Source: Microthrixaceae bacterium
Lineage (GTDB): Bacteria; Actinomycetota; Acidimicrobiia; Acidimicrobiales; Acidimicrobilacustridaceae
Length of the DNA stretch: 34,187 bases
Assembly (NCBI GenBank): GCA_947446975.1
Contig: CANFHM010000023.1
Span: forward strand, 1 to 34,187
Reading direction: 5' to 3'
Below the pieces are notes generated by a model, which saw nothing but the letters and a program-made list of their open reading frames with translations, searched no databases and was not told the origin of the DNA. The translations under genes were made by a program, and so were the position numbers. Below, piece by piece: positions 25,485 through 32,744 of this stretch (within the stretch, counting starts at the first letter, position 1; each line of letters opens with the position of its first letter).

Positions 25485-25515
25485 CATCCCGACCCTGCAG
25501 TGCCGGGTCGGGATG
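25485..25515. terminator. Strong bidirectional terminator hairpin
   Basis: A perfect 11-bp stem: CATCCCGACCC (25485-25495) pairs with GGGTCGGGATG (25505-25515) over a 9-base loop. It starts 10 bases after the alcohol dehydrogenase stop and faces the convergent DoxX gene, whose stop is at 25582. Confidence 0.75.
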
Positions 25516-25581
25516 CTCGATCGAAGCTCGTGTTGCTGTGGTCGAGAGCGGCGCCGTCCGAGAGGACCTCGCCGCCCGGCA

Positions 25582-26133
25582 TCACTTCTTGACGCTGCCG
25601 GGACGCCAGAACGTGAGCAGCTGCAGGGCCGCCCCGCCGAACCCGGCCACGGCGGTGATGATGAACCCGGGGTTGATGCCGTAGAGCTTGAGATCGATCA
25701 AGGAGTCGATCGACCACTTGCCGGCACCGGTGGCACCCAGGCAGAGCGCCACCGCTCCGAGCACGAGCACGTACTCGTAGCCGCCCCCGGCGTTGAAGAT
25801 GAAGAAGCCGTTGCTGCGATGCGCGGTGAGCCCGGCCACCACCATGATGGCGAGCATGCCGCCGGCGGCCAGCGGGGTGAGCAGACCGATGGCGAGCAGG
25901 GCGCCCGAACCGATCTCGGTGAGCGCCGCCATCCAGGCGTTGAGCAGGCCGGGGCGCACGCCCATGGACTCGAACCAGCCGGCGGTGCCGGGGATCTTCC
26001 CACCACCGAAGATCTTGTTGAGACCGTGCATGGCGAGCGTGCCACCGACCACGACACGAAGGATGAACAGGCCGAGATCGAGGCCGGGAACGGTGAAGTG
26101 TTTGTTGATCGATCCGAGGATGAGCGGGATCAC
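25582..26133 (-). CDS. DoxX family membrane protein
   Basis: A 183-residue DoxX-family protein with four membrane segments (about 18-36, 66-84, 88-104 and 119-136). Family landmarks are the FILRVVVGGTLAMHGLNKIFG start, given as LRVVVGGTLAMHGLNKI, then the GIxxP-like loop FESMGVRPG and the E(I/L)GSGALLAIGLLTPLAA helix. DoxX proteins of actinobacteria are linked to redox or thiol stress defence and respiratory enzymes, but this member's role is unknown. GTG 26133 has a GGAGG ribosome binding site at spacing 4. A TAGGCT -10 element at 26190 gives a leader of about 50 bases. It lies downstream of dnaE2 in the same direction but has its own promoter. Confidence 0.85.
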   Translation of the reverse strand: MIPLILGSINKHFTVPGLDLGLFILRVVVGGTLAMHGLNKIFGGGKIPGTAGWFESMGVRPGLLNAWMAALTEIGSGALLAIGLLTPLAAGGMLAIMVVAGLTAHRSNGFFIFNAGGGYEYVLVLGAVALCLGATGAGKWSIDSLIDLKLYGINPGFIITAVAGFGGAALQLLTFWRPGSVKK

Positions 26134-26189
26134 GATGCCTCCGGGAACTGGCGACTGCGGCGGGGTGCCGCTGCTGTGGACAGCGCCCG

Positions 26190-26195
26190 AGCCTA
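26190..26195 (-). promoter_or_regulatory. -10 element of doxX (leadered)
   Basis: TAGGCT on the minus strand, about 56 bases before GTG 26133, in the 105-base gap between dnaE2 and doxX. Confidence 0.4.
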
Positions 26196-26238
26196 GGGGT
26201 CGACCGCGTCGATGCGGTGGACTGGACCCGGACCGGGG

Positions 26239-29200
26239 TCAGCGGAAATCGCGGGAACCCGCCGCCGCCGGGACGGGGAGCAGCTCGAGCCGATCGGCGA
26301 TGACGTTGGTGACACCCTCGACCCGTTCCAGCCGGCCCCGCACCAGCAGGGCCGCCGCCGTGCGGGCCACGCGTCGGTACCGCTTCCAGAGACCGGGTGA
26401 GCAGATGACGTTGATGAGGCCGGTCTCGTCCTCGATGTTGAGGAAGGTGATGCCCGCAGCCGTGGCCGGCCGTTGCCGATGGGTGACCACGCCGCCGATG
26501 AGCACACGCGAACCCGGTTCGGCCTGCTGGAGCTCGGTGGCGGTGCACACCCCCATCGCGGCCAGATGGGAGCGGATGAACCGGGTGGGATGACCGTCGG
26601 GGGCGACACCGGTGGCCCAGAGATCGGCGGCGGCCACCTCGGCGGGGGCCAGTCCGGGCAGCGGTGGCGGATCGACCCCCACCACGATGCCCTCCAGCAT
26701 GTCGGGCCGGCTCGCCGCCACTGCGCCAGCCGACCACAGCGCCCTGCGCCGATCGAGGTGCTGGCCGCGCTGATCGGTGAGCTCGGCGAACGCCCCGGCG
26801 GTGGCCAGTGCCTCGAGCACGGCTCGACCGGGCGCCACCCGACGGTTGAGATCCTCGATGGAGCGATAGGGCCCGTCATGCTCGCGTTCGGCCACGATGC
26901 GCTCGGCGAGGTCGTCGCCCACTCCTCGCACCGAGGACAGCCCCAGCCGCACGACCGGCTGCTCGATGGACGCCGCACCCGTGGGGAACGTGTCGATGCG
27001 GAAGCGATCAGGATCGGGCTCGCCGTCGCCGCCGGTGGTCTCGAGCGAGGCCCCGGCCCGCGAGGCGTTGAGCTCGGGGGTGCGCACCTCGACCCCATGG
27101 CGCCGGGCATCAGCCACCAGCGTGTGCGGTGCGTAGAAGCCCATGGGCTGGGCGTTGAGCAGACCGGCGCAGAAGGCCGCCGGGAAGTGCCGTTTGAGAT
27201 ACGAGCTCGAGTAGACGAGATAGGCGAACGACACCGAATGGCTCTCGGGGAAGCCGAAGTTGGCGAAGGCGGCGAGCTTGTCGTAGATCTGCTCGGCGAT
27301 GTCGCCGGTGATGCCCCGCTCGGCCATGCCCTCGAACAGCCGATGGCGCAGGCGTTCCATGCGCTCGGTGCTGCGCTTGGACCCCATGGCCTGTCGCAGC
27401 TGATCGGCCTCACCGGCGCTGAACCCGGCCACGTCGATGGCCATCTGCATGAGCTGCTCCTGGAACAGCGGCACGCCGAGGGTCTTGGCCAACGAGGGTT
27501 CGAGCAGCGGATGCAGATAGGTGACCGGCTCACGGCCGTTGCGCCGACGGATGTAGGGATGCACCGAACCGCCCTGGATGGGACCGGGACGGATGAGTGC
27601 CACCTCGACCACGAGGTCGTAGAAGGTGCGGGGTCGCAGCCGGGGCAGGGTGGCCATCTGGGCCCGGCTCTCCACCTGGAACACCCCGATGGAATCGGCC
27701 TCGCACAACATGTCGTACACGGCGTCGTCCTGGGGCAGTTCGGCGAGGTCGATGCGGAAGCCATGGGCCTCGGCGATGAGATCGACGGTGTGGTGCAGGG
27801 CGGTGAGCATGCCGAGGCCGAGCAGATCGAACTTGACCAGACCCGCCGCCGCACAGTCGTCCTTGTCCCACTGCAGCACCGTGCGACCCTCGCGTCGGGC
27901 CCATTCGACGGGGCACACCTCGATGATGGGGCGATCACACACCACCATGCCGCCGGAGTGGATGCCGAGATGGCGAGGGGCGTGCTGGATCTGGGAGGCG
28001 AGGGTGACGACCGGTTCGGGGATCTCGCTGACATCGGTGGAACCGAGCGGACTCCAGCGATCGACCTGCTTGGCCCAGGCATCGGCCTGACCGGGGGCAT
28101 GACCGAGCGCCGAGGCCATGTCGCGCACCGCCGACTTGGCCCGGTAGGTGATGACGTTGGCCACCTGGGCGGCGTAGTGGCGACCATGACGGTCGTAGAC
28201 GTACTGGATGACCTCCTCGCGACGCCCCGATTCGATGTCGATGTCGATATCGGGTGGGCCGTCGCGCTCGGCCGACAGGAAGCGCTCGAACAGCAGCCCG
28301 AGGGCCACGGCGTCGGCCTTGGTGACGCCGAGGGCGAAGCACACCGCCGAGTTGGCCGCCGAGCCGCGACCCTGGCAGTAGATGTCGTTGCGGCGGCAGA
28401 ACTCGACGAGGTCGTGGACGATGAGGAAGTACCCGGGGAAGTTGAGCTGCTCGATGACGGCGAGCTCGTGCTCGATCTGGGCCCAGGCCCCCGGCACCCG
28501 CTCCCGATGGCGGGGGCCGTAGCGACGCTCGGCACCGGCCTCGGTGAGGCGACGCAGATGGGCCATCTCGGAGAGGCCGTCGGGGCAGGGATAGGGCGGC
28601 AGATCAGGGGCCACGAGGGCGAGGTCGAAGGCGCTGGCCCGACCCAGTTCGGCGGCGCGTTCGACCACGCCGGGATACCTGGCGAACCGGCGGGCCTGTT
28701 CGGCCCCGGAACGCAGATGGGCACCGGCGGCGGCGGGCAGCCAGCCATCGATCTCGTCGAGGCTGCGCCGGGCGCGCACCGCGGCGATGGCGGTGGCCAG
28801 CGGCCGCTGGGCGGGGCTGGCGTAGTGGGCGTTCATGGTGGCCACCGGATCGACCCCGACCCGCAGGGCCAGCTCGGCCAGGGCGTCGTTGCGGGCCGAG
28901 TCGAGCGGATGGCCGTGATCCCAGAGCTCGACGGCGAGATGGTCGCGACCGAAGGCCTCGACCAGTCGGGCGAGTTCGTGCTGCGCGGCGGCGGGACCGG
29001 AGCGTTCGAGCGAGGCCGCCACGGCGCCCTTGCGACAGCCGGTGAGCACCATCCAGTGCCCCTGATCGGCGGCAGGGGCGGCGGTGCCACCGAGCTGGGC
29101 CAGCTGGGCCAGCGACAGCACCGGCGCCCCCTTGGCCCCGCGCAGCTGGGCCTCGCTGATGGCCCGGGCCAGCAGGGCGTAGCCGCGTGGATCGCGGGCC

Positions 29201-29580
29201 AGCACCACGAGATGGGATTCGCCGTCCTCGAGCCCGGGGTCGGGATCGCCCACCGGAGCCCGCGAGCGACCGAGGGTGAGTTCGGCGCCGAACACCGTGG
29301 GCAGACCGAACTCCCGGGCCGCCTCGGCGAACCGCACCACGCCGTAGAAGCCGTCGTGATCGGTGATGGCCAGAGCTTCGAGACCGAGGCGCACGGCCTC
29401 CTCCACCAGCACCTCGGGGGCACAGGCACCGTCGAGGAAACTGAACTGCGAATGGCAGTGCAGTTCGGCATAGGGCGTGGTGGAGGGGCGGCGGATGAGG
29501 GAGGGCGCCTCATAGGGGGATCGCTTGCGCGACCAGGCCGGGGCGTCGGAGCCATCGCCACCGATGGGACGGGCCGGCAT
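26239..29580 (-). CDS. dnaE2: Error-prone DNA polymerase DnaE2
   Basis: A 1113-residue C-family polymerase, close to the usual DnaE2 length. The N-terminal PHP domain has YAELHCHSQFSFLDG (37-51; His41, His43) and ITDHDGFYG (72-80). The catalytic PDIDIDIE block is at 443-450 (Asp444, Asp446), and the third aspartate is Asp585 in KFDLLGLGM. A C-terminal OB fold (FLNIEDETGLINVI) closes the protein. DnaE2 rather than the replicative DnaE1 is supported by the length and by its position directly behind imuA and imuB. ATG 29580 overlaps the imuB stop as TGATG, so translation is coupled. It acts in SOS translesion synthesis. Its expression should follow the LexA box at 31943. Confidence 0.93.
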   Translation of the reverse strand: MPARPIGGDGSDAPAWSRKRSPYEAPSLIRRPSTTPYAELHCHSQFSFLDGACAPEVLVEEAVRLGLEALAITDHDGFYGVVRFAEAAREFGLPTVFGAELTLGRSRAPVGDPDPGLEDGESHLVVLARDPRGYALLARAISEAQLRGAKGAPVLSLAQLAQLGGTAAPAADQGHWMVLTGCRKGAVAASLERSGPAAAQHELARLVEAFGRDHLAVELWDHGHPLDSARNDALAELALRVGVDPVATMNAHYASPAQRPLATAIAAVRARRSLDEIDGWLPAAAGAHLRSGAEQARRFARYPGVVERAAELGRASAFDLALVAPDLPPYPCPDGLSEMAHLRRLTEAGAERRYGPRHRERVPGAWAQIEHELAVIEQLNFPGYFLIVHDLVEFCRRNDIYCQGRGSAANSAVCFALGVTKADAVALGLLFERFLSAERDGPPDIDIDIESGRREEVIQYVYDRHGRHYAAQVANVITYRAKSAVRDMASALGHAPGQADAWAKQVDRWSPLGSTDVSEIPEPVVTLASQIQHAPRHLGIHSGGMVVCDRPIIEVCPVEWARREGRTVLQWDKDDCAAAGLVKFDLLGLGMLTALHHTVDLIAEAHGFRIDLAELPQDDAVYDMLCEADSIGVFQVESRAQMATLPRLRPRTFYDLVVEVALIRPGPIQGGSVHPYIRRRNGREPVTYLHPLLEPSLAKTLGVPLFQEQLMQMAIDVAGFSAGEADQLRQAMGSKRSTERMERLRHRLFEGMAERGITGDIAEQIYDKLAAFANFGFPESHSVSFAYLVYSSSYLKRHFPAAFCAGLLNAQPMGFYAPHTLVADARRHGVEVRTPELNASRAGASLETTGGDGEPDPDRFRIDTFPTGAASIEQPVVRLGLSSVRGVGDDLAERIVAEREHDGPYRSIEDLNRRVAPGRAVLEALATAGAFAELTDQRGQHLDRRRALWSAGAVAASRPDMLEGIVVGVDPPPLPGLAPAEVAAADLWATGVAPDGHPTRFIRSHLAAMGVCTATELQQAEPGSRVLIGGVVTHRQRPATAAGITFLNIEDETGLINVICSPGLWKRYRRVARTAAALLVRGRLERVEGVTNVIADRLELLPVPAAAGSRDFR

Positions 29581-31214
29581 CAGTCGTACCAGCCCTCGAA
29601 CGACCAGCGACCGCCGACACAGGCCACCAGCGCGGCCCGGCCATCGGTGAACTGGAGCTGCAGCCGGGCCCGACGGTCGTGGGCGAGCGTGTCCCACCAG
29701 CGTTCATCGACCAGCCAGGGGCCGGCCCATGCCGCCACCGAGAGGGTCCGACCATCGGGGAGCTCGACGAACGCCGGGGGTGCGCTGAGGGCGCCGCGAC
29801 CCGACACCGCGAGTTCGCGCCGGTCGGTGTCGAGCACATGGGTGGCCCGGGGTTCGGCGGGCACGAACGCCGGTGAGGGGGCGGGCACCCGCCCGGGCCA
29901 TGGGGGCTGCGGACCATGGCCCGACCGTCGGGCGGGAGCGTGGTCGGGATCGAGGGTGAGCACCGGTGCCCGCACGACGGCGGCGAGCGGACCACGACCA
30001 CCGCGGCGTTCGGGGACGGTGACGGCGTCGGGACCGACGAGGCCCTGCACCCGGGCCAGCGTGCGGGCCGCACGGGCATCGGCGGCGGTCTCGCCACCCC
30101 AGAACCCGAGCTGCCGCCCCCGGGCCGGTCCCACCTCATCGGGGATGAGCGACAACCGGGAGATGCCGCTGGTGGGACGCAGCACGGCGGGTCCGTTCAG
30201 CCAGCCATCGAGCTGCCAGCGGACCCGGTCGGTGATGGCCCCCACCCCGAGCGCACCCTCGGCCCGCCAGAGCCGTTCATTGCACTCCCCCGTGTCGGTC
30301 TCGGCCGCGATGCACACGCGCGTGCACGACAGCCCCTCGGCCTCGAGCCCTGTATGCAGCTGCTCGGCCAGACCCCGGGCCACGAAGGCGGCGCGATCGA
30401 CGCGGTCGATGGGCGGGTCGAGCTCGATGGTGACCGAGAGATGCGGTGGCAGAGGTGCACTGCGGGGCGGATGCTCGTCGAGACCCCCGGCCAGACGATG
30501 GGCGAGCAGACCCTCGGCCCCGAACCGGGCGACCACATCGGCGGCCGGGAGTGCGGCGAAGGACCCGAGGGTGCGCAGGCCCAGACGCAGCAGCACATCG
30601 GCGAGCTCGGGCCGGGCGAGGGACTGCACCGGCATCGGGGCGAGGAAGGATCGGGAACCCCCCGGGGGCAGGACCATGGCGGCGTCGGGGTCGGCCAGCT
30701 GCCGCCGCGCCACCTGCTCGGCCACGAACCGACCATCGGCCACACCCACCCCGGCACCCTGCGGCCAGCCCAGTGCGCCGGTGACCCCACGGACCTCGGT
30801 CAGCACCGCTGCGGCCAGCGCCTGATCGCCGCCGAAGTAGCGCGAGGGCCCGCGGGTGGGGAAGGCCGCGACCCCGGGGGTGGAGAGCTCGATGCGCGGG
30901 GTGAAGCGCTCGAGCGCACCACCGACGGCATGGAACAGCCGGGCGTCGCGATCGGGATCGGACTCATGCACCTGCAGCGACGGACAGCGGGCCTGGGCCT
31001 GGCGGCGCCGGTGCCCGACCTCGATGCCCTCCGCCCGTGCCGCCGGCGTGACCGCCACCACCCGATCGGCCCGCATGACCACTGCGGCGATCTCGGGCGC
31101 AGCACCGGCGGCCATGAGCGACCACTGCGGACACACCACCACGAGACAGCGCAGGACACGATCCTGTGGCCGCGGTGCGGGCTCAGCTGACGGACGCTGC
31201 TCAGCTGACGGCAC
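29580..31214 (-). CDS. imuB: ImuB, catalytically inactive Y-family polymerase-like mutasome subunit
   Basis: A 544-residue Y-family-like protein. The first strand (RCLVVVCPQWSL) has no aspartate where active DinB-type enzymes carry the first metal ligand. The region that should read 'DE' is ELSTPGVAAFPTRGP, so the second set of ligands is missing too. Fingers and palm-like segments (VTPAARAEGIEVG, RYFGGDQAL) and a little-finger region remain. A QLGFWG motif at about 368-373 resembles the beta-clamp-binding QLPLWG of mycobacterial ImuB. It is expected to hold DnaE2 and ImuA on the clamp. GTG 31214 overlaps imuA by 14 bases and precedes the strand by about 20 residues; a later start is possible. 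An 18-bp tandem duplication lies at the start. Confidence 0.88.
   Translation of the reverse strand: MPSAEQRPSAEPAPRPQDRVLRCLVVVCPQWSLMAAGAAPEIAAVVMRADRVVAVTPAARAEGIEVGHRRRQAQARCPSLQVHESDPDRDARLFHAVGGALERFTPRIELSTPGVAAFPTRGPSRYFGGDQALAAAVLTEVRGVTGALGWPQGAGVGVADGRFVAEQVARRQLADPDAAMVLPPGGSRSFLAPMPVQSLARPELADVLLRLGLRTLGSFAALPAADVVARFGAEGLLAHRLAGGLDEHPPRSAPLPPHLSVTIELDPPIDRVDRAAFVARGLAEQLHTGLEAEGLSCTRVCIAAETDTGECNERLWRAEGALGVGAITDRVRWQLDGWLNGPAVLRPTSGISRLSLIPDEVGPARGRQLGFWGGETAADARAARTLARVQGLVGPDAVTVPERRGGRGPLAAVVRAPVLTLDPDHAPARRSGHGPQPPWPGRVPAPSPAFVPAEPRATHVLDTDRRELAVSGRGALSAPPAFVELPDGRTLSVAAWAGPWLVDERWWDTLAHDRRARLQLQFTDGRAALVACVGGRWSFEGWYD
31181..31211. repeat. 18-bp tandem duplication at the imuA/imuB overlap
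   Basis: GCTCAGCTGACGGACGCT (31181-31198) is followed by a second, 13-bp partial copy, GCTCAGCTGACGG (31199-31211). In imuB it encodes PSAEQR then PSAE; in imuA the second copy contains the stop codon. The period of 18 keeps imuB in frame. Confidence 0.8.
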
Positions 31215-31938
31215 GATCCACCGATCCGAACGGCACCAGGACCCGACCCTCGTCGGGGGCATCGGGGGCCGCGGTGACCGACCCCTCGGAGGTGGGCAGC
31301 AGCAGTGCGGCACGACGCTGCCGCGACCATCGACCCCGACCCTCGGCCTCCACGAGGACCCGACGACGACGCAGCACCCCATGACCCATGCCGAGGCCCT
31401 GCCAGCGCTGCTCGCGCACGGTGAGCGCCACATCCGGCGACCAGCGCAGCGCCCCGGACCCCTCCCCCGGGACTCCGGGCTGCACCAGCAGCACCACGGC
31501 CCCGCGCTCCCTGGCACGGGCGGCCAGCCGCCGGGCATCGGAGGCACCGATGGGAAGGCGCGTGTCGAGCACCACGAGCTCGATGCCGTCGACGAGGGCG
31601 GCCACCACCTCGACCGCACGGCGATCGGGGGGTGGGTCGATGAGCAGGAGGCGTTCGAGGGCGAGCCCGTGCTCGTCGGCGGCGAGCAGACCGAGCTCGG
31701 GCAGACCGACCACGGCGGTCCAGCAGCCCGCGGCGGAGGGTTCGGCCAGCAGGGCCAGGGCCAATGAGCTGGCACCCACCCCGAGCAGCTGCACCGAGGA
31801 CCCGCGCACGAGGGCGCCGTCGGGCAGCAGCGGCTGCAGGGCCCGACCCACGGGGAGCACCCGTTCGCCGGCCGGGACGACAGGGGCGATGGAGGCCGAC
31901 AGGCTGCGCAGGGCGGCGAGATCGACGGGGAGGTTCAT
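31201..31938 (-). CDS. imuA: ImuA-type RecA-like mutasome protein
   Basis: A 245-residue protein with a RecA-like core: a strand and loop LLGVGASSLALALL in the Walker A position lacking the GKS/T residues, then WTAVVGLPELG and a Walker-B-like LVVLDTR strand. This fits actinobacterial ImuA' (RecA-like, without an intact ATP site) more than an active recombinase. In relatives it binds ImuB and DnaE2 in the translesion complex. ATG 31938 is exactly six bases past the GATACT -10 of the LexA-controlled promoter; the open frame continues upstream only as antisense or out-of-frame sequence of the LLM gene. It is the first gene of the operon. The family call rests mainly on position and the partial core. 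Confidence 0.8.
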   Translation of the reverse strand: MNLPVDLAALRSLSASIAPVVPAGERVLPVGRALQPLLPDGALVRGSSVQLLGVGASSLALALLAEPSAAGCWTAVVGLPELGLLAADEHGLALERLLLIDPPPDRRAVEVVAALVDGIELVVLDTRLPIGASDARRLAARARERGAVVLLVQPGVPGEGSGALRWSPDVALTVREQRWQGLGMGHGVLRRRRVLVEAEGRGRWSRQRRAALLLPTSEGSVTAAPDAPDEGRVLVPFGSVDRAVS

Positions 31939-31942
31939 GCCC

Positions 31943-31970
31943 CCAGTATCGAACACCTGTTCGATACTGG
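31943..31970 (-). promoter_or_regulatory. LexA (SOS) box and promoter of imuA-imuB-dnaE2
   Basis: A 28-bp inverted repeat with 13-bp perfect arms around 2 central bases. The core TCGAAC-ACCT-GTTCGA (31949-31964) equals the mycobacterial-type SOS box TCGAAC-N4-GTTCGA. On the minus strand a TTGCCA -35 (31968-31973) and GATACT -10 (31945-31950) are 17 bases apart, with the box between and touching both. LexA binding should block the polymerase directly. The start codon is 6 bases after the -10. Confidence 0.9.
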
Positions 31971-31979
31971 CAACCGGTT

Positions 31980-32744
31980 TCAGTCCCTGATGGCGAGGAA
32001 CCGTTCGAGAGCGCTCAGATCGAAGGCACCACGGGTGCCGGTCATGAGGATGAGATGGTCGGCACCGGCCTCGAGATAGGCCTCGACGGCGTCGATCTCG
32101 TCGGCGCCGATGCCCACCGTGCGCTCGATCTCGCGGGGGTCGCGGCCCACCTCGGCGCACCACTGGTCGAGGATGGCGTTCTTGTGGGCGAAGTTCTCGG
32201 GCGGACCGAAGGTGTTCCACTGGTCGGCGTACTGGGCCGTGATGCGCAGGGTGACCTTCTCGCCTCCCCCGCCGATCATGATCGGGAGTGCCCCGATGGG
32301 CGCCGGGTTGAGGGCGGCCACGCGGGTGCGGATGCGCACGAGTGCCTCCTCGAGTGCCCGGAGTCGGGAACCGGGGGTGCCGAACTCGTAGCCGTACTCG
32401 TCGTAGTCGCGTTCGAACCATCCGGCACCGAGACCGAGACAGGCCCGCCCGTTGCTCACATGGTCGAGGGTGCGGGCCATGTCGGCGAGCAGTTCGGGGT
32501 TGCGGTACGTGTTGCCCGTGACGAGCATGCCGACCTGGGCATGTGCGGTGTCGGCGGCCATGGCGGCCAGCGTGACCCAGCCCTCGAAATGGGCGCCGTC
32601 GGGTTCGCCGTAGAGCGGGAAGAAGTGATCCCAGGTCCAGATCGAATCAGCACCCATGGCATCGGCGGCCCGCCAGGCGGTGCGCAGATCCTCCATGGTG
32701 GTGTGCTGGGGCTGCAGCTGGATCCCGAGCTTGAAGGCGGCCAT
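31980..32744 (-). CDS. LLM-class F420-dependent oxidoreductase
   Basis: A 254-residue luciferase-like protein, shorter than the other three in the window (323-343). It starts AAFKLGIQLQPQHTTMEDL and has the ADSIWTWDHFFPLYG segment, GMLVTGNTYRNP (cofactor-facing strand), GLGAGWFERDYDEYG and IMIGGGGEKVTLRI, all typical of F420-dependent LLM enzymes with the GGGG phosphate loop. F420 use is inferred. ATG 32744 is 4 bases after the stop of the NifU-N-like gene, so the two likely share a transcript. Its stop is about 10 bases from the upstream end of the imuA promoter region. The frame is open further upstream, but this overlaps the preceding gene. Confidence 0.85.
   Translation of the reverse strand: MAAFKLGIQLQPQHTTMEDLRTAWRAADAMGADSIWTWDHFFPLYGEPDGAHFEGWVTLAAMAADTAHAQVGMLVTGNTYRNPELLADMARTLDHVSNGRACLGLGAGWFERDYDEYGYEFGTPGSRLRALEEALVRIRTRVAALNPAPIGALPIMIGGGGEKVTLRITAQYADQWNTFGPPENFAHKNAILDQWCAEVGRDPREIERTVGIGADEIDAVEAYLEAGADHLILMTGTRGAFDLSALERFLAIRD

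Follow-up and report, generated by a model that had tools for sequence, protein, structure and literature searches.

A LexA-boxed imuA'-imuB-dnaE2 operon in Acidimicrobiia: a mutasome cassette most likely joined by secondary fusion

The window discussed here, a stretch of 34,187 nucleotides, is contig CANFHM010000023.1 (C23) of a 2.35-Mb, 88.6% complete Microthrixaceae assembly from the class Acidimicrobiia. It is highly probable that the window carries an SOS operon for an ImuA'-ImuB-DnaE2 mutasome of the actinobacterial (ImuA2/ImuB2) type, the one-operon form being most likely a secondary fusion. In the class, dnaE2 has a LexA box of its own in 59 of the 61 genomes in which it lies at least 700 bp (0.7-39 kb) from imuB and in none of the 15 in which the gap is at most 70 bp, and the small coupled clade to which the window belongs is nested among uncoupled relatives. 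Read from sequence comparisons, this exchange suggests that the operon of the window's clade most likely arose by a deletion that fused separate genes, and that the conserved feature is most likely LexA control, not co-translation. The preliminary description of this DNA had recognized that the mutasome cassette is complete and stands behind a single LexA-type box, and had taken the three genes as a co-regulated unit. The first claim is borne out and the second is supported.

Arrangement and operator of dnaE2

The class sample comprised 198 genomes, with query matches for ImuB in 144, for ImuA' in 128 and for DnaE2 in 190; the ImuB-query matches include other Y-family polymerases (weak scores), the DnaE2-query matches include DnaE1, and for many genomes the scoring covered just some of the first-look candidates. 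Among the matches listed, to which the imuB-dnaE2 counts in this text refer, at least 124 genomes have clear matches to both ImuB and DnaE2. Measured from match to match and not from gene to gene, the two lie less than 700 bp apart in 29 of these, 0.7-39 kb apart in 61 and on different contigs in 34; strand and order are the same in all 90 same-contig pairs. The stretch upstream of dnaE2 was read in 129 genomes, leaving out G039 (no match), G113 (too little upstream sequence) and G103, G145 and G148 (dnaE2 at a contig end), and a LexA box was counted at two mismatches or fewer. In addition to the two extremes given above, a box was found in 8 of 14 genomes with a gap of 71-700 bp, and in 32 of 39 whose dnaE2 contig has no ImuB among the matches listed (ImuB on another contig included). 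A narrower scan of the genomes with gaps of at least 700 bp gave 55 boxed of 61, against a mean of 0.47 and a maximum of 5 for 60 control palindromes; it ended 20 bases before the anchor and missed boxes (e.g., in G172 and G180), and the controls cover this narrower scan only.

Of the six unboxed genomes at 71-700 bp, four (G082, G144, G176, and G189) have a DnaE2 match that begins about 120 residues into the protein, and the genes are therefore really close. By eye, the upstream frames in five of the seven without a listed ImuB (G055, G067, G099, G102, and G165) end as in coupled genomes. The two at 700 bp or more are G174 and G035; in G035, dnaE2 follows and, by gene call, overlaps a DUF222-HNH gene (locus L051, 3872-5172) that carries an exact LexA box close to the 5' end. 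This gene is an alternative route to dnaE2 under LexA.

A wider tree of 86 rows mixes unnamed and named sets, and one species may occur twice in it. With 21 rows set aside, dnaE2 is adjacent without a box in 17, adjacent with a box in 5, separated with a box in 41 and separated without a box in 2, and the arrangement requires at least 10 changes. In an independent-pairs test with eight pairs, a mean of 5.3 behaved as expected and 2.6 showed no difference, with at most one opposite. We regard it as rather likely, with less confidence than in the operon itself, that dnaE2 of Acidimicrobiia switches repeatedly between two equivalent states, coupled without operator or free-standing with its own LexA box. 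This estimate is a joint one, which also covers that the free-standing box often lies at a similar short distance from the dnaE2 start, that the window's clade represents a return step and that selection acts on LexA timing.

Two further observations were made in the class sample. In a group of small genomes (f21/g40, ~1 Mb), no ImuB was found and the DnaE2-query matches are weak, at DnaE1 level, among the matches listed; the mutasome seems to have been lost there. In loci L070-L072 (G141, G118, and G063) and also L069 (G106), the cassette is tightly packed and the called ImuB is only ~360-375 residues long, with matches restricted to parts ~84-246 and ~339-544 of the query, i.e., a reduced ImuB.

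The window's family is represented by 37 genomes, and DnaE2 is readable in 29. The coupled imuB-dnaE2 junction occurs in the window, G204, G207 and G213, with imuB and dnaE2 equally close in each, while 23 of the 25 uncoupled genomes (counted by hand) carry a dnaE2 box at two mismatches or fewer. The exceptions are G035 and G223, the latter with only ~140 bases upstream before the contig start. In a 35-row DnaE2 tree, the four coupled genomes form one clade (support 100/99) nested among relatives with a separate dnaE2. One change is enough to explain the coupled state, a value that none of 500 shuffles reached. In the near relatives G083, G023 and G035, imuB lies 1.9-6.8 kb upstream of dnaE2. 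These three and the window are the four of 52 loci with at least 450 bp past dnaE2 in which doxX follows the gene; reckoned from coordinates, no other family locus extends that far. By hand count, 13 of the 25 uncoupled genomes carry the DnaE2 N-terminal motif NPP-x-PW-x-ELE (partly in G224), while it is absent in 11 and cut off in one; the coupled four lack it and keep the subsequent DGSD-x-PAWSR block. In the proposed scenario, a deletion would have taken out the DNA that separates imuB from dnaE2 in relatives, along with the LexA promoter of dnaE2 itself. Measured against roughly half of these relatives, it would also have removed the first ~25-30 codons of dnaE2.

A shared function of the intervening stretch in relatives was considered and rejected: the called genes in 18 loci, one of which was compared with Pfam, are mixed, lie on both strands, and none is common to all. 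In 4 of these 18 (L049, L276, L281, and L285, all uncoupled members of the window's family), a similar gene of ~175 codons, judged by eye, stands right after imuB.

The operon, its operator and its products

The three overlapping minus-strand genes and their control elements are listed in Table 1. The coordinates, strand and junctions given in the preliminary description (three minus-strand genes, a 14-bp overlap, then TGATG) were all correct. The TGATG junction is identical in a sister metagenome-assembled genome (L188).

Table 1. Features of the imuA'-imuB-dnaE2 operon (window coordinates; aa, amino acids; nt, nucleotides)
Feature	Position	Strand	Details
-35 hexamer TTGCCA	31968..31973	minus	operon promoter
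LexA operator TCGAACAGGTGTTCGA	31949..31964	minus	between -35 and -10, overlaps -10
-10 hexamer GATACT	31945..31950	minus	last base 7 nt ahead of imuA' ATG
imuA'	31201..31938	minus	ATG 31938, TGA 31201; 245 aa; RecA-related accessory factor, actinobacterial type
imuA'/imuB overlap	31201..31214	minus	14 bp
imuB	29580..31214	minus	GTG 31214, TGA 29580; 544 aa; Y-family polymerase homologue, scaffold
ImuB QLGFW, beta-clamp-binding-like motif	30099..30113	minus	residues 368-372; 15-row alignment
TGATG junction imuB/dnaE2	29578..29582	minus	one A common to stop and start
dnaE2	26239..29580	minus	ATG 29580, TGA 26239; 1113 aa; error-prone C-family polymerase + PHP domain

The 16-bp palindromic box TCGAAC-N4-GTTCGA of the actinobacterial LexA/SOS regulon is present within the operon promoter as TCGAACaggtGTTCGA (31964-31949), the sole exact match in the window. 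At two mismatches or fewer, the window has 10 LexA-type sites against 1.21 expected, and the remaining nine each have two mismatches. In the whole genome, 60 sites per strand occur at one mismatch or fewer against 6 for the reversed pattern. Exact boxes occupy seven places, two of which, on contigs C40 and C60, have near-identical surroundings and stand beside lexA; the genome's lexA gene (C60:9615-10232) has a box of the same type upstream. The promoter TTGCCA-17-GATACT (31973-31945) is the sole promoter-like (sigma-70-like) site in 25500-32400, where 0.1 is expected; neither a second such site for dnaE2 nor a terminator-like site was found in this interval, and no box at two mismatches or fewer, which dnaE2 could call its own, lies between 28302 and 31948. 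Together with the overlaps, the lack of a further promoter- or terminator-like site is suggestive of one tricistronic mRNA. Since the -10 hexamer ends 7 nt before the imuA' ATG, this mRNA would probably be leaderless.

The operator is widely kept in front of imuA'. A box at two mismatches or fewer was found upstream of the gene in 107 of 120 loci of relatives, against a mean of 0.85 and a maximum of 10 for 60 permuted palindromes, and 9 of the 13 loci without it lie outside Acidimicrobiia by record label. The distance from the box to the first in-frame imuA' start is 26 in 45 of the 107 and 25-31 in 90, and the -35 positions T, T and G occur in 63-65% of these operator contexts. In the window, the operator stands within a longer near-perfect palindrome (31943-31970), CCAGTATCGAACA-GG-TGTTCGATACTGG, which results from the reverse complementarity of the bases following the -35 to those surrounding the -10 hexamer; TTGCCAGTATCGAAC-N3-TGTTCGATACTGG recurs exactly in 18 of 298 loci, some of these being one and the same site.

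Other exact boxes in the genome stand at the 5' ends of reading frames (L003, L004, and L008, at C1:60355, C4:14015, and C58:7290). The L003 gene matches Pfam DUF222 and the L004 and L008 genes match that of L003 by BLAST; against Pfam, the latter two gave no match. Mycobacterial DUF222-type genes (13E12 family) belong to the SOS regulon, and those of the window's genome look like SOS-regulon members as well. A further exact LexA-type palindrome (L006, C26:27961-27976) lies inside a frame that looks yidC-like by eye and is probably due to chance.

The preliminary description had named the first gene imuA. It is imuA', matching the mycobacterial-type family NCBIfam NF058630 with 134.9 bits (cut-off 65). 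Its product lacks a GK[ST] Walker A motif when read by eye, and its best match among PDB sequences, RecA (E 0.37), is not significant. ImuB has a Pfam IMS (Y-family) domain (31.7 bits). The catalytic Asp-Glu pair of E. coli Pol IV is matched by G-e in the ImuB family profile and by G-V in the window; loss of the first catalytic Asp was judged by eye only. The clamp motif is assigned by motif match, QLGFW taking the place of QLPLWG in mycobacterial ImuB; its Q368 is nearly invariant in the 15-row alignment, in which a conserved ARVQGLLG block, a candidate RecA-NT-like motif, follows the clamp motif and the C-terminal region is conserved too. DnaE2 scores 1448.8 bits against PRK05672 (cut-off 939) and 692.6 against the DnaE1-type PRK05673, under its cut-off of 1002, and a separate DnaE1-like match lies on contig C9. 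PDIDID and FDLLGL align with PDIDTD and MDFLGL of Taq alpha, and the polymerase aspartates, which we take to be catalytic, are thus kept. The two best-conserved PHP stretches of Taq alpha are retained, and the alignment stops ~110 residues short of the Taq alpha end.

In the proposed mechanism, LexA on the operator inside the promoter would block transcription, and RecA-driven LexA cleavage after damage would release the probably leaderless tricistronic mRNA. Catalytically dead ImuB would dock on the beta clamp via QLGFW and is presumed to bind ImuA' and DnaE2, the latter then copying past lesions, with errors. The accessible parts of the mycobacterial literature describe ImuB as a scaffold on the clamp, ImuA' as an accessory and DnaE2 as the polymerase (PMC10421592, PMC6511836, PMC12926913), with QLPLWG as the ImuB clamp motif (PMC10421592). 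Absence of Walker A is described as a feature of ImuA2 (PMC12926913).

Alternative histories and their weight

Several points weigh against secondary fusion and repeated switching. Support is only 91/92 at the node that unites the coupled four with their sister group, and G218, G222 and G223 were scored as uncoupled with no imuB seen beside dnaE2. Loss of the DnaE2 N-terminal motif is not specific to the fusion, since 11 of the 25 uncoupled family genomes are without it too. The imuB stop region resembles a box, with three mismatches in the window and G204 and two in G213, which would pass as boxed under the two-mismatch rule; this likeness is taken for a coding coincidence. The independent-pairs test is borderline (median p 0.0625, range 0.03-0.22). 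For Acidimicrobiia, no data on transcripts, LexA binding or mutagenesis were found. Moreover, coupled forms were found in other families too, and at the level of the class the ancestral state may have been either.

The last point bears on the alternative that the one-operon form is ancestral and that the relatives split many times independently, each gaining a LexA box at dnaE2. Tight forms in other families (29 of the 124 genomes have matches less than 700 bp apart) and in Micromonospora and Actinokineospora would fit this history, and the strand and order kept in all 90 same-contig pairs are expected if an old operon had been pried open. In the window's family, however, a single origin of the coupled state is enough, the coupled clade being nested among uncoupled genomes. 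We consider an ancestral operon unlikely here, although this history may hold at the level of the entire class.

Somewhat less likely still is that the ImuA':ImuB:DnaE2 ratio is fixed here by translational coupling via the overlaps, a possibility raised in the preliminary description, and that selection maintains this coupling. An imuB start candidate giving exactly the 14-bp overlap is present in all four coupled genomes (G207 and G213 each have a further candidate codon closer to the conserved part), the spacing between the imuB end and DnaE2 is identical in the four, and no strong Shine-Dalgarno sequence was seen before dnaE2 by eye. Against this stand the distant dnaE2 genes of the class, boxed in 59 of 61 genomes without coupling, and the 23 of 25 uncoupled family genomes that carry a LexA box instead. 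In addition, mycobacterial ImuA' and ImuB localise differently though encoded together, according to the accessible part of PMC10421592. The ratio claim is hence not upheld, although coupling may matter within the small coupled clade.

Acquisition of the whole cassette from a proteobacterium by horizontal transfer, to which the shared gene order would point, is very improbable and was set aside on the ImuA' family, which is mycobacterial (NF058630), and on the nearest relatives (the trees have no proteobacterial rows), given that close matches increase with taxonomic nearness inside the class and roughly track family labels among the matches listed. By ImuB, the nearest named relatives are uncultured Actinomycetota/Acidimicrobiales, part of them labelled Candidatus Microthrix; records very close to the window's genome may be absent from this search. 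Among cultured Acidimicrobiia, Aquihabitans sp. G128 has imuB in locus L255.

Secondary fusion with conserved LexA control thus remains the preferred history. The coupled and split relatives form a natural series in which the same three-protein machine is encoded either in a single coupled operon or in two units under LexA control, and it therefore becomes testable whether the ratio in the complex needs operon coupling or only common timing. If repeated switching is true, the target of selection is a common LexA timing, rather than a fixed stoichiometry or the structure of the operon. The analysis also adds SOS annotation for the class Acidimicrobiia.

Comparison with known systems

The mutasome and its joined or split LexA-controlled forms are already described. 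The mycobacterial ImuA'-ImuB/DnaE2 mutasome has the same three proteins, with the same ImuA' family, a clamp-type motif in ImuB and LexA control; in mycobacteria, however, dnaE2 is a separate locus (split cassette), whereas the window has three genes in one overlapping operon. The proteobacterial imuA-imuB-dnaE2 operons of Caulobacter and Pseudomonas putida (the latter with lexA2) have the same order in one LexA-controlled unit, as far as the accessible part of PMC3901139 goes. Their imuA falls into another ImuA group than that of the window (PMC12926913, accessible part), and the window operon is without lexA, unlike that of P. putida. In Streptomyces, dnaE2-dinP (S. venezuelae vnz_06640/06635) likewise places a LexA-controlled dnaE2 with a Y-family partner, according to the accessible part of PMC9380542; judged by locus numbers, dnaE2 comes first there, unlike in the window. 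The accessible part of PMC6511836 describes the S. coelicolor partner as a different inactive PolY without ImuB-C or ImuA.

The closest likeness in arrangement is found in Micromonospora and Actinokineospora (L245, L251, L256, L259, and L266), with contiguous imuA'-imuB-dnaE2 of the ImuA' type in the same order; unlike the window, these loci have no TCGAAC-N4-GTTCGA at two mismatches or fewer at imuA' or dnaE2. Across Micromonosporaceae and Actinokineospora, imuB adjoins dnaE2 and the box is absent at this threshold in L244, L245, L250, L251, L256, L258, L259, L263 and L266. The mutasome of these groups may be under another regulator. Because the genes are contiguous in named Micromonospora and Actinokineospora, separation of dnaE2 is no phylum-wide rule; the separation noted in the preliminary description holds for mycobacteria and does not extend to the phylum. 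In the literature searched, no account of operon/operator exchange was found for Acidimicrobiia. Relative to the known systems, what is new is the fine scale and apparent reversibility with which operon and operator are exchanged in this class, and the window provides a probable, well-resolved case of operon re-formation.

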